From Armatimonadota bacterium (GTDB lineage: Bacteria; Armatimonadota; Fimbriimonadia; Fimbriimonadales; GBS-DC): a stretch of DNA of 53,477 nt. Location: assembly GCA_023511915.1 (NCBI GenBank), contig JAIMAN010000012.1:1-53477 (forward strand), read 5' to 3'. Of this stretch, positions 8,831 to 15,845 are shown piece after piece. The position numbers and the translations under genes were made by a program. The notes under the pieces were generated by a model. That model ran no database searches and had not been told where the DNA came from. It saw only the letters and a list, made by a program, of their open reading frames with translations. How positions within the stretch are numbered: position 1 is the first letter of the stretch; the number at the start of each line of letters is the position of its first letter.

Positions 8831-9406
8831 GTGAAGGTATTGATGATTGACAACTACGATAGCTTTACCTACAATTTGGTGCAATATTTAGGCGAGCTGG
8901 GCGCGGAGCTGACCGTCGTGCGCAACGACGAGCTGACCGTCGAGCAGGCGCTCGCGCTGCAGCCCGACCGCATCGTGATTTCGCCCGGTCCCTGCACGCC
9001 GAACGAGGCGGGTATTAGCGTCCCGCTGATTCAGGCGGCGGCGGGCAAGGTTCCGATTCTGGGCGTGTGCTTGGGGCATCAGGCGATTGGCGCGGCGTTC
9101 GGGGGCAACATCGTTCGCGCGAAACGCCCCATGCACGGCAAGGAGTCGCCTGTGCGCCACACGAACGCGGGCGTCTTTCGCGGCGCGCCCAACCCGCTGC
9201 GCGCCATCCGCTACCACTCGCTGGTGATTGAACGCGCGACCCTCCCCGACTGCCTCGAAATCACCGCCGAAAGCGACGACGACCACGAAATCATGGGCGT
9301 GCGCCACAAACACCATCCCATCGAAGGCGTGCAGTTCCACCCCGAATCGATCCTCAGCGAGGCGGGGATGCAGATTTTGCGCAACTTTCTCGATGCGCCC
9401 CGTTGA
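8831..9406 (+). CDS. Glutamine amidotransferase, anthranilate/aminodeoxychorismate synthase component II
   Basis: The 191-residue class-I amidotransferase has the oxyanion-hole [12 protein letters not shown] motif near 57-68, the nucleophile cysteine in [11 protein letters not shown] near 79-84, and the His-Glu pair in [10 protein letters not shown] near 170. It supplies ammonia from glutamine to TrpE or PabB. The trpG and pabA forms cannot be separated without the partner, which is not in the window. The GTG at 8831 is supported by AGGAG seven bases upstream. It follows hrcA by 14 nt and probably shares its message. Confidence 0.9.
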
Positions 9407-9453
9407 TATAAGACTTTGCGCTCGCGCCTCAGAATACGATTTCTGAATTGGGG

Positions 9454-9459
9454 TATAAT
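9454..9459 (+). promoter_or_regulatory. -10 box of the dockerin-type secreted protein
   Basis: GGGGTATAAT is followed by a leader of about 30 nt containing a strong AAAGGAGG ribosome-binding site. This gene is therefore leadered, unlike many neighbours with the same box. Confidence 0.65.
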
Positions 9460-9495
9460 AGGGCATCCCCTATGGGGAAAGGAGGTATATCAACG

Positions 9496-10536
9496 ATGAG
9501 ACGACCGATGATGGTACTCGGTGGGTTATTGGCGCTGGCAGCGCTGGCGCATGCGCAAGCTGACGGGCGCAACATCCCCAGCAAGTACGGCGCGCCCCTC
9601 GCCTCGCAGACCAACTACACGGGCTTCGGCGACCGTGTGAGCAACGACCAAGCATGGGGCTCCGAACTGAACCAGCTCTTCGCCAAGTGTGTCAACGGCG
9701 TGCTGTATATTGCGGTCACGGGCAACCTGGAGGGCAACGGCAACTCGATACACCTCTACATCGACACAGGGCGCAGCCAAAGCAACACCTTCAACCTAAC
9801 GACGGACTGCATCAACTGCTCCGTGCAGGGGATGAGCGGTGTGCTGTTTGACCACAACCCCGACTATGTGCTGGGCGTCAACCGCTTCGACGACGGGCAG
9901 GGCAACGACAACATCTACATCGACTTGCACGATGTGGTGGGCAACCAGTCCACCTATCTGGGGGCGGTTGCCGTCGGTTCAGGCGAGGGTACGGTCGATC
10001 AAGGCGTCAAGGCGGGTTTCGACAACTCGAACCTGCAGGGCGTCACGAGCGCCCCGAACAACATCGGCGACCCTGCAACCGCCACGACGGGGCTGGAGGT
10101 CGCGATTCCGCTGAGCGCGCTGGGCAACCCGCAGGGCGAGATTCGGATTCTGGCGGTGCTGACGGGCGGTGCAGACTTGAGCGACCCGTGCCGCGGCACT
10201 TACCTGTCCAACCAGTCGCTGCCCGCGATGAACATCGGCGATACCAGCCAGCAGTTGCCGAACGGGGCGTGGTCGCGCTGTCCCGACCCGCCGTTCGATA
10301 GCTTCCCGTTCAGCTTCGTCGCGCTGGCGGGCGACCACTTCGTGTCGGTGCAGCCGTGTCCTGCGGGACCCGAGGGCGATGTGAACGGCGACGGCTGCGT
10401 CGATGACGCCGACCTGCTGATTGTGCTGTTCAACTTCGGCAACGCGGGCGGTCAGGGCGATGTGAACAACGACAGCATCGTTGACGACGCCGACCTGCTG
10501 ATTGTGCTGTTCAACTTCGGCGCAGGGTGCCAGTAA
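9496..10536 (+). CDS. Secreted protein with two C-terminal dockerin-type EF-hands
   Basis: The product is 346 residues from the ATG at 9496, preceded by AAAGGAGG. An N-terminal Sec signal peptide (RRPMMVLGGLLALAALAHAQA) is followed by about 270 residues with many Asn, Gly and Asp residues and beta-type patterns. The C-terminus carries two calcium-binding loops, DVNGDGCVDDADL and DVNNDSIVDDADL, each followed by LIVLFNFG. Dockerin repeats bind cohesins in cellulosomes. In Armatimonadota-like genomes such tails occur on many exported proteins without a cellulosome, so here they may act as a sorting or attachment tag. No cohesin is in the window and the main domain is not recognised. Confidence 0.85.
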   Translation: MRRPMMVLGGLLALAALAHAQADGRNIPSKYGAPLASQTNYTGFGDRVSNDQAWGSELNQLFAKCVNGVLYIAVTGNLEGNGNSIHLYIDTGRSQSNTFNLTTDCINCSVQGMSGVLFDHNPDYVLGVNRFDDGQGNDNIYIDLHDVVGNQSTYLGAVAVGSGEGTVDQGVKAGFDNSNLQGVTSAPNNIGDPATATTGLEVAIPLSALGNPQGEIRILAVLTGGADLSDPCRGTYLSNQSLPAMNIGDTSQQLPNGAWSRCPDPPFDSFPFSFVALAGDHFVSVQPCPAGPEGDVNGDGCVDDADLLIVLFNFGNAGGQGDVNNDSIVDDADLLIVLFNFGAGCQ

Positions 10537-10550
10537 GCCCTCACCCCCTT

Positions 10551-10577
10551 CCCCTCTCCCACAGCGTGGGAGAGGGG
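10551..10577. repeat. CCCCTCTCCCAC palindrome after the dockerin-type gene
   Basis: A perfect 12-bp stem (CCCCTCTCCCAC / GTGGGAGAGGGG) with an AGC loop lies 14 nt past the stop codon. No T-run follows, so it is at best a weak terminator. A close copy occurs at 15819-15845, and related GC-rich palindromes lie inside the gene at 12112-13332, which suggests a dispersed repeat family. Confidence 0.7.
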
Positions 10578-10675: not shown

Positions 10676-12093
10676 ATGAGGAAACTGTGTGCGTTGTTGG
10701 GGCTTGCAACTGCAGTGTGTTTGTTGGCGTGAGGCTGGCTGCGCCAACCCGACGAGAAGTTCACGACCAACCTGCCCGTCGCCGTGCTGATTGGCGAGCA
10801 GAGCGGCTACCTGTTGACCCCGCCTGAGTTTGTGGCGCAGCCGTTCATTCGGCGCATCGAGTGGTCGCCCGACGGCAACTATGCCGTGCTGTTCCAGACC
10901 GCCCTGCGCGCGGAGACGCCGACGCTCGACGATGCCGTGATGCGCCACCGCGTGCTGCTCTGGAGCCGTAGGACGCGCCGCCTGAGCGTGCTGTGGGAAT
11001 CGGCGCAAACCGACCGTGAGGTGAACCCGAACCGCGAGTTCCAAGTCGCGTTTGTTGGCAAGGCGCCGCTTTGCCTATTCGCGGTGCGCGTGTGGGACGA
11101 GGCGAAGCAAGATGACCCGTGGCAGGCGTATGCAGCGGTTTTGGGCGGGCGCACGATTCCGTTGGGCGCGTATCGCGAAGCGTGGCTGCTCGCGCCACCC
11201 GCCGAAGACATCGGCTACATCCTCGTCGCCGAGTCGGAGAACCTGCTCTACAAGCGTAAGTACGCGCCCGTCGGCGCCAACGGAATGCTCGCCAATTTCC
11301 AGCCCGTGTCCGAGGAGTTGGACATCACCGCTTGTACGCCTACTCCACGCGCAGGGGCAACCCTGACCTGTGGTACGAGGACGGCAAGCAGATGCTGCTC
11401 TCCTCGTTCGGTCCGCCGATTGCCGTACCAGAAACCGATGGCGCTGAGCACCGCGTGGAGCCTGTCTACTTGCTTTGGAACCTACGCACGAATCAGGTAC
11501 AGCCGATTGACAACGCGCGGGCGCGCTACTACCGCGTGAACCAAGAAACGCAGCTTCACGCCCGTTCGGAGCGGCATTCCCTCCAGCACGCGGGCAACCC
11601 TGCCGAGACCGCCGCGACTTGGCTTTCTGAGGGCGAGCGCGCCGTGCTGGTGGCGTCCGATTCTGCGCTGGCGGAGGTCGCGCCGCAGGGCGATGCGATT
11701 CTGTATATGGCGCACGGCGCGGCGTTCTACCGCGAGATTCGGCGCACGAGCGCGGACGCCATTCGCGAGATGCAGGATCGCGCCGACCGCGAGCAATACC
11801 TGAAAAACGCGAAACAGATTGCTGTCGCACTGCTGATGTATGTGCAAGACTATGACGAGATGTTCCCCCCGAACTTCGGCGACGACGGGGTGTCGCAGGT
11901 GCTGCTGCCCTACCTCAAGGATCCGGGCGTCTTCGAGGTTAACGGCGCGTTCGCCTTCCGCTACCAGATGGACGGGCAGTGGTTGGGCAATATCGAGAAT
12001 CCTGTTGAGACAGTTGCTGGCTACCTAGAGTTGCCGAACGGGCGCATGGTGATTTACGCCGATGGGCATGTGAAGTGGCAGCCGTATCGGTAG
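10676..12093 (+). pseudogene. Lipoprotein gene with WD40/TolB-like and H-X9-DG-type regions, broken by a TGA and a frameshift
   Basis: A lipoprotein signal begins at 10676 (RKLCALLGLATAVCLLA). TGA at 10730-10732 then falls exactly where the lipobox cysteine (TGC or TGT) should be, after which the frame continues as GWLRQPDEKF. A beta-propeller-like part (RRIEWSPDGNYAVLF) follows. Near 11326-11332 the sensible reading changes frame and resumes at LYAYSTRRGNPDLW. The last 110 residues (NAKQIAVALLMYVQDYDE, YADGHVKW) resemble the C-terminal part of DUF1559/H-X9-DG proteins but lack a prepilin leader. Two independent lesions favour a pseudogene, but sequencing errors are possible. The promoter and ribosome-binding site look intact. 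Confidence 0.7.
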
Positions 12094-12111: not shown

Positions 12112-13332
12112 GTGGCGGGCGTCGTTTGGGCGTTGTGGCTCGCGCTGGGCGTGTGGGACCTGATGCGCATCTGGCGGATAGCGCCGAATGTGCATACAGA
12201 GTCTCCCCCCCTCCAGTCGGTTCCCCTCGCTTCGCGAGGGGAACCGAGCGGAGCGCCTGTGCAGTTTCCCCCGCGTGTAGGGGAGCTGAGCGGGGCGCGC
12301 GTTCGGTTCCCCCTGCCCGCAGGGGGAACCTTAAGGAGGGGGTTCTCGACTTTTCAGGTGCATCTCCGCTGGCTGGGCGATGGGCGTGGGTGGGCGCTTG
12401 CGCTCAGCGTGGCGAGTTTCGCGCCTGCTGTTGCGCCTGACGCGAGCCTGCTCGTGCAAGCTGCGCTGACCGTGCTGGTGGGCGTGGGGCTACTGCGTCT
12501 GATGCACGCGCTCGATTCGCGAGCCGTTGGGCAAGGCGTGATTGCGGGTCTGGGGCTGATTGCGCTCGTGCTGGATTCGCTGAGCGGCGGCGCGTGGGCG
12601 CGACACGGCGCGCTGGGGCACGGCACAGAGGCGCACGGCGTCGGCGTGCAATACGGCGCGCTCGCGCTGCTGTGGGGGTTGCTCGTGGTTCGCGCGTGGC
12701 GGCGCATCGAGGGCAATCCGCTCGGCGCGGTGGTCGGGCTAGGCGCGCTGGCATGCTGGCTCGGCTGGGCGGGGCTGACGCCTGCCGTCGGCTGGGGCGC
12801 GGCGACGACCGCGCTTGCGCTGGGGCTTGGGCAGCTGCGCCGCGAACGCGACGAACGCAAGCGCGTGCGCCTGACGCTCCAGAACCGCGTGGTGCGCGTC
12901 GTGCGTCGCGCCTCGAACGCCGACCTCGCGCTGGCAGGAGGCGCGCTGGTCGGGCTGTGCCTGCTCGCGCTTGGGCTGAGCGGTGCGCCTCTCCCTGAAA
13001 CGCCACGGCTTGGGGCGCACGCAGGCTGGCAGGCGGGGGTGGTAGGCGTGCTTACGTTGGGGATGGGGATTGAATTGCCCCCACCCCGTCCCTCCCCGCA
13101 CGCGGGGAGGGCGCGAGGATTCCTCCCCCGTGTACGGGGGAGGTTAGGAGGGGGGCAACAACTGTACCTCTCGGCGATTCTCGGACTCGCCCCCCTGACC
13201 CTGCTCGGCGGCGAGCCACTGGCGACGCTCGCGCTTGTTATGCTCATGGTATGGGCAAGCCGCGACGAGAACCTGCAGGAATACCCCACTCGCGCGTCGA
13301 ACCTACCGACCCGTACAGGAGGCAACGAATGA
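12112..13332 (+). CDS. Polytopic membrane protein of unknown function interrupted by palindromic repeats
   Basis: The 406-residue product starts at GTG 12112. It has about ten hydrophobic segments rich in Ala, Leu, Gly and Trp. Two stretches, about residues 32-77 and 322-349, are not membrane-like. They are rich in Pro, Arg, Gly and Ser and are encoded by clusters of GC-rich hairpins. Both clusters keep the reading frame open. I do not recognise the family. The stop overlaps the ATG of the SurA-like gene (ATGA), so the two are translationally coupled. This may hint at a role in envelope biogenesis. Confidence 0.7.
   Translation: MAGVVWALWLALGVWDLMRIWRIAPNVHTESPPLQSVPLASRGEPSGAPVQFPPRVGELSGARVRFPLPAGGTLRRGFSTFQVHLRWLGDGRGWALALSVASFAPAVAPDASLLVQAALTVLVGVGLLRLMHALDSRAVGQGVIAGLGLIALVLDSLSGGAWARHGALGHGTEAHGVGVQYGALALLWGLLVVRAWRRIEGNPLGAVVGLGALACWLGWAGLTPAVGWGAATTALALGLGQLRRERDERKRVRLTLQNRVVRVVRRASNADLALAGGALVGLCLLALGLSGAPLPETPRLGAHAGWQAGVVGVLTLGMGIELPPPRPSPHAGRARGFLPRVRGRLGGGQQLYLSAILGLAPLTLLGGEPLATLALVMLMVWASRDENLQEYPTRASNLPTRTGGNE
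12205..12342. repeat. Palindromic repeat cluster inside a coding region, copy 1
   Basis: Three hairpins stand in tandem: GGTTCCCCTCGC...GCGAGGGGAACC at 12219-12245, a weaker one around 12255-12275, and GGTTCCCCCTG...CAGGGGGAACC at 12305-12330. They are separated by similar spacers (GAGCGGAGCGCCTG, GAGCGGGGCGCGCG). The cluster is bounded by CCCCCTCC and GGAGGGGG in inverted orientation. This looks like a mobile palindromic element that inserted and partly duplicated. Confidence 0.7.
13075..13159. repeat. Palindromic repeat cluster inside a coding region, copy 2
   Basis: Two hairpins, CCCTCCCC...GGGGAGGG (13090-13111) and the near-perfect CCTCCCCCGT/ACGGGGGAGG (13122-13143), are enclosed by TTGCCCCC at the left and GGGGGCAA at the right. 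The inverted outer ends suggest a discrete inserted unit. The reading frame of the membrane protein passes through it. Confidence 0.7.
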
Positions 13333-14486
13333 AATCGACGACTGGTTTAGCGAGCATGCTTGGAATCGTGCTTGCGCTCAGCCCGCTTGCGGGCGGCGCG
13401 TTGCAAACGCAACCGAAGCAGGAACCGAAACAACAACCGCAGAAGCAGCAGCAACCGAAGCAGGAACCGAAACAACAACCGCAGAAGCAGCAACAGCCGA
13501 AGCAGGGTCAGCAACAGCAGAAGCAGACCCAGCAGCGACAACAACAACGCCAGCAGACTCAACAGCGGCAGGGTCAGCAGGCGCAGCGCCCGCAAACGCC
13601 CCAGCAGTATCGCCCCAAGCCGCTGCCCGCAGGCGATACCGTTGTGGCGACCGTGAACGGCGAGCCGATCCGCGCCAGCGAACTCATCCAAGCCAGCTAC
13701 GAGTGGTTCGCCGCGACCGCTATCGAGGAGCTAATCCTGGAGCGCGTCATCGAGCAGGAGGCGCGCGCACAGCGCGTCACCGTCTCCAACGCCGAAGTGG
13801 AAGCCCGCTACAAGCAGCAACTCCAAAACGCCGAGTCACAGGTTCCCCCCGGCATGAGCCTCGACGACTTCCTCAAGCGCAACCAGTTCCCGCCCAGCCG
13901 ACTGTTCGCCCGAATCCGCAGCCAGTTGCTGGTGGAAAAACTCGTCGAGCGACAGGTGAACCTCGACGACTTCGTGGAATACAGCCAACTCGTGATTCGC
14001 ATTCAGGGCAACACGCCCGAACAGCAAGAGGAGAACACCCCTGCTGCTGAAGCCAAAGCGCAGGAAGCCTACCAGAAAATCAAAGAGGGGCTGGACTTCG
14101 CCGAGGCGGTCAAGGAATACTCCGAAGACCCGTTCAGCAAAGATCGTGGCGGCAAGATGAACTGGCAGAACCTCAACTTCATCGTGCCCGACCTGCGCCA
14201 GAAACTGCAGGCGATGCAACCGGGCGAAATCTCCGAGCCGTTCAAAATGATGGGCAGCATCGTGATTATCCGCAAGGAGCGCACGGGGTCGCAAGCCTCG
14301 CCCGAAGAGCAGCAGGAGCTGCGCGAGCAAGCCGTGCGCCTGCAGATTGGCGAGTATGTGCGCCAGCTGCAAGCGAAGGCGAAGATCACGAACACTATCG
14401 TGCAGCCGTTCGACCCGACGACCGCCGCGCCGCCCGGCGGACCGAACGCGCCGCGTCCGCCCGCTGCGCGTCCCGTGCCGCGCTAA
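13329..14486 (+). CDS. SurA/PpiC-type peptidyl-prolyl isomerase with Gln-rich linker
   Basis: The 385-residue protein begins with a signal peptide (TTGLASMLGIVLALSPLAGG). An unusual Lys/Gln/Pro-rich stretch with two copies of a 14-residue repeat fills about residues 28-95. A SurA-N-like chaperone helix region (VVATVNGEPIRASELIQ onward) and a parvulin domain follow (YQKIKEGLDFAEAVKEYS, DRGGKMNW, near 240-340), then a Pro-rich end. It should fold exported proteins outside the cytoplasmic membrane. The start at 13329 has an AGGAGG site and overlaps the upstream stop. Confidence 0.88.
   Translation: MKSTTGLASMLGIVLALSPLAGGALQTQPKQEPKQQPQKQQQPKQEPKQQPQKQQQPKQGQQQQKQTQQRQQQRQQTQQRQGQQAQRPQTPQQYRPKPLPAGDTVVATVNGEPIRASELIQASYEWFAATAIEELILERVIEQEARAQRVTVSNAEVEARYKQQLQNAESQVPPGMSLDDFLKRNQFPPSRLFARIRSQLLVEKLVERQVNLDDFVEYSQLVIRIQGNTPEQQEENTPAAEAKAQEAYQKIKEGLDFAEAVKEYSEDPFSKDRGGKMNWQNLNFIVPDLRQKLQAMQPGEISEPFKMMGSIVIIRKERTGSQASPEEQQELREQAVRLQIGEYVRQLQAKAKITNTIVQPFDPTTAAPPGGPNAPRPPAARPVPR
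13412..13495 (+). repeat. 42-bp tandem repeat, two copies, in the SurA-like gene
   Basis: The unit begins ACCGAAGCAGGAACCGAAAC and repeats after exactly 42 bp, encoding PKQEPKQQPQKQQQ twice. The copies are nearly identical at DNA level, which suggests recent duplication or slippage. A degenerate Gln-rich continuation follows. Confidence 0.85.
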
Positions 14487-15712: not shown

Positions 15713-15845
15713 CCCTTGCCCGCGCGGCGGGCGAGGGAGCTTGTGGAGTGCGGAAGCGAAGCTTCCGCGAATGGCTGAAGCTGACGCTTCAGCACTCCAT
15801 AGAGTCGGCGCGCTGAGTCCCCTCTCCTAAGCAGTGGGAGAGGGG
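15713..15845. repeat. Structured intergenic repeat with nested hairpins
   Basis: The segment between two convergent genes holds four inverted repeats: GCCCGC/GCGGGC near 15718-15731, GCGGAAGC/GCTTCCGC (15750-15768), GCTGAAGC/GCTTCAGC (15774-15793) and CCCCTCTCC/GGAGAGGGG (15819-15845). The middle two are enclosed by TGGAGTGC (15744-15751) and GCACTCCA (15792-15799), so the unit could fold into a three-way junction. The last palindrome matches the one at 10551-10577. No open frame with a start signal is present. Confidence 0.7.

Follow-up and report, generated by a model that had tools for sequence, protein, structure and literature searches.

Two clusters of GC-rich hairpins that lie within a functional membrane-protein gene of an Armatimonadota bacterium are, with high probability, dispersed, non-autonomous mobile elements of the REP/MITE kind—members of two families, P1 and P2—that inserted into the gene in this lineage. 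Sequence comparisons, on which all of this rests, show that the clusters are repetitive elements, that the gene is real, and that relatives possess the gene without the inserts; they show, too, that P1, P2 and a third family, P3, occur in frame in some 13 other genes. The window, as we call the whole 53,477-nucleotide stretch of DNA analysed, had been described as containing two GC-rich hairpin clusters with inverted outer ends inside one open frame, and inspection of the sequence and repeat searches agree:

12112–13332, + strand: host gene, a multi-pass membrane protein of 406 aa; a single open frame carrying both inserts
12207–12342, no strand assigned: insert 1, a P1-family triple hairpin encoding residues ~33–77
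12217–12247, no strand assigned: P1 hairpin 1, of GGTTCCCCTCGC/GCGAGGGGAACC type; perfect 14-bp stem
12305–12330, no strand assigned: P1 hairpin 3, GGTTCCCCCTGC/GCAGGGGGAACC; perfect 12-bp stem
13075–13158, no strand assigned: insert 2, a P2-family double hairpin of exactly 84 nt (28 codons), residues 322–349
13090–13111, no strand assigned: P2 hairpin 1; 10-bp stem
13122–13143, no strand assigned: P2 hairpin 2; 10-bp stem

Insert 1 begins with CCCCCTCC (12207–12214) and ends with GGAGGGGG (12335–12342); between its two perfect hairpins, 1 and 3, lies a decayed middle one. Insert 2 is bounded by TTGCCCCC (13075–13082) and GGGGGCAA (13151–13158). Neither insert carries terminal arms; these short outer inverted repeats form their ends. 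Hairpin number alone is weak evidence—the window contains 10 with stems of at least 9 bp, versus 5 in one mononucleotide shuffle—and it is the repetition of the elements, together with the evidence from relatives, that makes the case.

The open frame itself is, on comparative grounds, a real gene. No Pfam family matched it, and an Rfam search of the window gave no match. Relatives of the gene occur in 11 of the 12 other members of the genus; five more come from related genera of its family. Orthologues had been put forward as the place to look for uninterrupted versions of the protein, and this proved to be so: neither insert is present in any of the seven aligned, which are 48–71% identical. 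Named records that contain the neighbouring gene place the group in the Fimbriimonadales, and the closest relative among the genomes compared is a sister species, G010, represented by the complete metagenome-assembled genome KatS3mg018 (AP024673.1). When the coding flanks are compared with G010 DNA, mismatches pile up at third codon positions. The insert-1 region differs from G010 by a net gain of 171 nt (57 codons), a multiple of three; at the insert-2 site G010 has a shorter, different loop, some nine loop residues having been replaced or lost alongside the insertion. The first membrane helix is common to all aligned orthologues, and hence the gene starts upstream of insert 1. Insert 1 occupies the loop between predicted helices 1 and 2, and insert 2 a later loop; a structure model made from eight sequences, poor in quality (mean pLDDT 52.5), likewise places residues 24–79 and ~320–345 in coil between helices.

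The neighborhood of the gene has peculiarities of its own. Upstream, what appears to be a single gene with a lipoprotein-type start and a DUF1559-like tail (10680–12093) contains a TGA at ~10731 and a change of frame near 11330, so that it reads as two open frames, 10784–11539 and 11332–12093; it is either a pseudogene or an assembly error. Downstream, a Gln/Lys/Pro-rich repeat (13409–13600) starts a PPIC-type rotamase gene.

Elements of these kinds are abundant. The genome to which the window belongs, G000 (C-numbers denote its contigs), was surveyed with nhmmer (E≤1e-3) over 968 kb, or 35%, and counting copies, as originally proposed, established that the clusters are not unique: 101 element loci were found, a density to be read as an upper estimate since the stretches surveyed were chosen partly for carrying elements and not at random. 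Three main families account for these loci—P1, typified by 12207–12342, P2 by 13075–13158, and P3 by 10537–10577—with ~37 loci containing P1, 12 P2, and ~52 P3 and/or P4, a repeat that forms the spacer within many P3 elements. A P5 query by itself gave no nhmmer match at the same threshold. The P3-type core pattern has 62 exact matches genome-wide; the reversed pattern, as a control, has none. Three further elements lie between genes in the window:

10537–10577, no strand assigned: P3-family element, GCCCTCACCCCC..CCCCTCTCCC..GGGAGAGGGG; intergenic, straight after a TAA stop at 10534–10536
15744–15800, no strand assigned: P4-family palindromes, GGAGTGCGGAAGC..CAGCACTCC; intergenic, by direct reading of the sequence
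15819–15845, no strand assigned: diverged P3-like hairpin; intergenic, 9-bp stem, 82% identical to the 10550–10577 copy

The palindromes at 10551 and 15819 had been described as intergenic and similar to those inside the gene. Intergenic they are, but they belong to P3, unlike the in-gene P1 and P2. The gene just upstream of the P3 element closes with two dockerin-like repeats (DVNGDGCVDDADLLIVLFNFG; 10373–10521), and dockerin-like motifs also end several other genes that abut elements (on contigs C13, C37, C54 and C34).

The families differ in distribution. The 1.6 Mb of G010 contain 115 loci, almost all of them P3/P4, and just six P1. Across the phylum a P3 24-mer (≤2 mismatches) has a patchy distribution: 84 of 291 genomes contain it, with tens of copies in some distant families. 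From these two observations it seems likely that the P1 expansion is largely specific to this lineage, and that P3 is old or has been transferred.

The suggestion that these palindromes invade genes while keeping the frame, as those of Rickettsia do, holds well beyond the window. At least 15 copies lie in frame in 14 genes, the window gene with its two included; such cases were found partly by way of open frames, a procedure biased against detecting insertions that break the frame. In seven of the genes, the first seven listed here, the G010 flanks continue in the same frame and third-position mismatches are in excess on both sides. The names GlcE-like, GT39/ArnT-like, TamB-like and ApbE come from reading the sequences and not from a family search.

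C111: membrane protein, P1
C14: GlcE-like FAD protein, P1
C26: GT39/ArnT-like protein, P2
C61: TamB-like protein, P3
C69: LpxC, P3; Pfam domain
C74: GT39-like protein, P1; empty sites in relatives
C85: ApbE, P3; whole segment missing in G010
C47: YbeY, P3; G010 flanks in the same frame, but third-position pattern mixed; Pfam domain
C6: alanine racemase (Alr), P1; Pfam domain, empty sites, split structure match
C68: DapF, P3; conserved domain, empty sites in relatives
C107: TrpF, P3; Pfam domain
C16: lipoate ligase (LplA), P3; Pfam domain
C22: membrane protein, P1; the weakest case, a long open hydrophobic frame only

Several of these genes are normally essential. Matches of Alr and YbeY to solved structures split around the insert. 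Four other candidates, at C79, C106, C47:33402 and C85:8862, were set aside, as they are probably antisense frames or intergenic insertions. A cross-check over 54% of G010 yielded no clear case of a frame-breaking insertion within a gene.

Empty sites had been sought as a sign of insertion, and relatives have them, for the window gene and for Alr, DapF and ApbE among others; beyond G010, relatives of these other genes were compared by match coordinates. Alr residues 4–154 and 206–422 match nearly abutting stretches of one open frame in relatives, and so ~51 residues are missing there. At least 10 other genus members in which a single contig carries both parts of the gene show this empty site, as do genomes further afield. 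For DapF the match breaks at about residue 126–129 in G001, G005 and G012, and resumes at about 163–168, with short DNA between.

The inserts in YbeY and LpxC tell us something about age. Both P3 inserts are present in G010 at the same place and in frame, and both are missing from other genus members: in G001 and G004 the matches to YbeY residues 1–103 and 130–211 nearly abut, and several genomes show near-abutting LpxC matches without the insert. Being common to the two species but missing elsewhere, these inserts arose within the genus; judging from this distribution, they have outlived at least one species split and have long been tolerated. In the YbeY gene of G010 (C1:1561568–1562341) the insert has since expanded, a unit containing GEGLGVRATADFAPAANLDTPNHAA having been duplicated in tandem and in frame. 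In another genome (G009:C28:2383–3714), a YbeY match lies inside a 471-aa open frame, which suggests several in-frame insertions.

Many extragenic copies form the centre of a longer, armed element, with arms of the sequence ATACCAATCGC.. for P1, AATAAGTGTCTTTGCG.. for P2 and TGATAAGGGTACA.. for P3. A recognizable arm accompanies one of the 15 intragenic copies versus 37 of the 86 others (Fisher p = 0.008; background <1%), those 86 being not purely intergenic, as unverified intragenic copies may be among them. The arm sequences have stops in one to four of the six frames; each of the four cores tested has four or five of its frames open. The exception lies in frame in the 1602-aa TamB-like gene (L094, contig C61, ~9250–9460): a P3 element that is complete, with its two terminal arms. 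Decayed arms may also be present in the GlcE-like insert, by our reading by eye.

Target duplications, the other sign of insertion looked for, could not be established: by eye, no consistent duplication was seen around P1 terminal inverted repeat pairs or intragenic copies, and the short flanks of the ApbE and GT39-like inserts, seemingly similar, are too diverged for target duplication to be claimed. A search for a parent transposon with the same ends, over 0.97 Mb of G000 and 1.6 Mb of G010, found only MITE-sized pairs, and one 2.4 kb pair enclosing a separate MITE.

What might move these elements? A gene for a Y1 transposase-like protein is present in all 13 members of the genus, and was considered for this role. 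The motif of active HUH enzymes contains two histidines; the main protein of this type reads NQVHL instead of the expected NHVHL in each of the eight copies examined, and it carries an added, C-terminal helix-turn-helix-like region (L106:7552–8280, contig C111). As an HUH nuclease it is probably inactive, its loci lack strong GC hairpins, and we rejected it as the mobilizer; its motif and architecture make it, probably, a domesticated transposase. A second gene, of RAYT type (L106:19186–19973, same contig), has an intact NHYH motif and a conserved tyrosine region. In both G000 and G010 this gene lies between P4 repeats, and a RAYT gene between repeats is the classical RAYT arrangement. The positional link is to P4 only: P1, P2 and P3 were not found adjoining any RAYT gene, and at the loci examined in the two genomes no enzyme could be tied to P1, to P2 or to the arms of P3.

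Could the clusters be ordinary intergenic REPs or terminators, and the frame that spans them a by-product of GC-richness, spurious or belonging to a split gene? An ORF does run across more than half of the elements (54 of 101), in many cases simply as a consequence of the GC-richness of the genome, and those at C79 and C106 are probably the antisense or intergenic artefacts already mentioned. In the verified cases, however, both flanks show coding-type substitutions in the same frame, orthologues of the host gene are 48–71% identical, and conserved domains stand on either side of inserts; for the window gene this explanation is largely refuted, and overall we consider it most improbable. Equally hard to credit is local growth of GC-rich loop sequence, or recombination between intergenic repeats, with no movement of elements at all. 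Growth after insertion evidently does occur, as the duplication within the YbeY insert of G010 attests, and the failure to see target duplications would fit. Against this, there are families across the genome that the inserts match, hairpins and defined outer ends included, and the element in the TamB-like gene is complete with both its arms.

A little less improbable, although still very unlikely, is that the inserts are functional coding modules like PARCELs, in which selection acts on the peptide itself and has spread it as a segment of proteins. Five genes—LplA, LpxC, YbeY, TrpF and ApbE—read P3 in one and the same frame (ALTPSPSPT..WERG type), and the YbeY and LpxC inserts have been kept across species. 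But P1 occurs in at least three frames or orientations (one in the window gene and C14; another in C74, C22 and C111; a third in Alr), P3 in at least two, the majority of copies lie outside verified genes, and the host proteins are unrelated enzymes.

The best reading, in our opinion, is of selfish elements, MITE/REP-like, that persist in protein loops by way of cores almost free of stops. The GC-rich cores would be tolerated for two reasons: stops are absent from most of their reading frames, and the loops that they add between helices or strands, rich in proline, glycine and arginine, are probably unstructured. Frame-shifting insertions, and those in which the stop-bearing arms persist, would be purged by selection, and it is for this reason that in-frame cores, and rarely whole elements, would remain in genes. 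Least certain is how the elements move; we infer that a transposase supplied in trans moves them, whether an HUH enzyme of RAYT type or one that recognizes the arms. It is possible, if rather unlikely, that mobility resides in the GC-rich cores, which a RAYT-type enzyme would move in trans as single-stranded hairpins, independently of the arms. Were that so, the genus would have a standing source of new in-frame loops with which to remodel essential enzymes.

Most accounts of gene invasion of the kind seen with Rickettsia palindromic elements (RPEs) concern intracellular Alphaproteobacteria; elsewhere there are scattered REP cases. Here it is frequent, in a deep-branching phylum and a genus with a dozen sequenced sister species, so that a tree can be used to locate filled and empty sites. 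What selfish DNA in essential proteins costs, how old it is and what structural limits it meets thereby become directly measurable. There is a warning for annotation, too: recurring peptides such as ALTPSPSPT.WERG or PLSR.AGEG.GVRA signify mobile DNA, not domains. Palindromes in frame are already known as a kind; families P1–P3, and an Armatimonadota host, appear to be undescribed in the non-subscription literature searched, in which we found no report of in-gene palindromic repeats in this phylum, nor the peptide LTPSPSP.

Among known systems, PARCELs are palindromic repeats in coding sequence that reportedly encode a conserved amphipathic repeat (PMC2996958). A single conserved amphipathic frame is not what we find, P1 occurring in at least three frames or orientations and P3 in at least two. 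The terminal inverted repeats of MITEs are present on many extragenic copies, but not on the two in the window gene. As for the REP/RAYT system (REPtron), an intact RAYT-type Y1 gene is flanked by P4 in G000 and G010; no copy of P1–P3 was found beside a RAYT gene. Intragenic GTAG/CGTC REPs, in Opitutus terrae, Thauera and Thioalkalivibrio for example, encode 20–82 residues (PMC3733652). Like the elements here, they are short, palindromic and located in genuine genes, frequently as dimers or clusters; DNA repair genes are stressed in that account (PMC3733652), whereas the genes invaded here serve the cell wall, lipid A, RNA processing and the membrane. Read by eye, the hairpin feet of the listed P1–P3 copies show neither GTAG nor CGTC, the latter being the foot described for RPE-4 and RPE-6 (PMC3733652). 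The Correia/NEMIS elements of Neisseria come in two forms: a short one, free of stops, that abounds within genes, and a long one, containing stops, that is confined almost entirely to intergenic DNA (PMC2229807). This split parallels that between cores and armed elements, although the sequences differ, and here it is the core alone that is found in genes, along with one complete, armed intragenic copy.

Closest in behavior are the RPEs and their Wolbachia counterparts (WPE), palindromic repeats of ~100–150 bp, with several families per genome, that occur both between genes and in frame; RPE inserts lie in solvent-exposed parts of proteins, and some are common to several species (PMC3767692, PMC2229807). 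Here, too, dispersed palindromes are found in frame in conserved genes as well as between genes, with some inserts common to species, and the P1 core, at 136 nt, fits the size range; P2, at 84 nt, is somewhat shorter. Unlike RPEs, these elements have unrelated sequences, GC-rich multi-hairpin cores, three separate families and an Armatimonadota host, and many of their extragenic copies bear long, MITE-type terminal arms. By sequence and by tag they are not RPEs, and the likeness, as far as such comparison reaches, is one of behavior rather than kinship.
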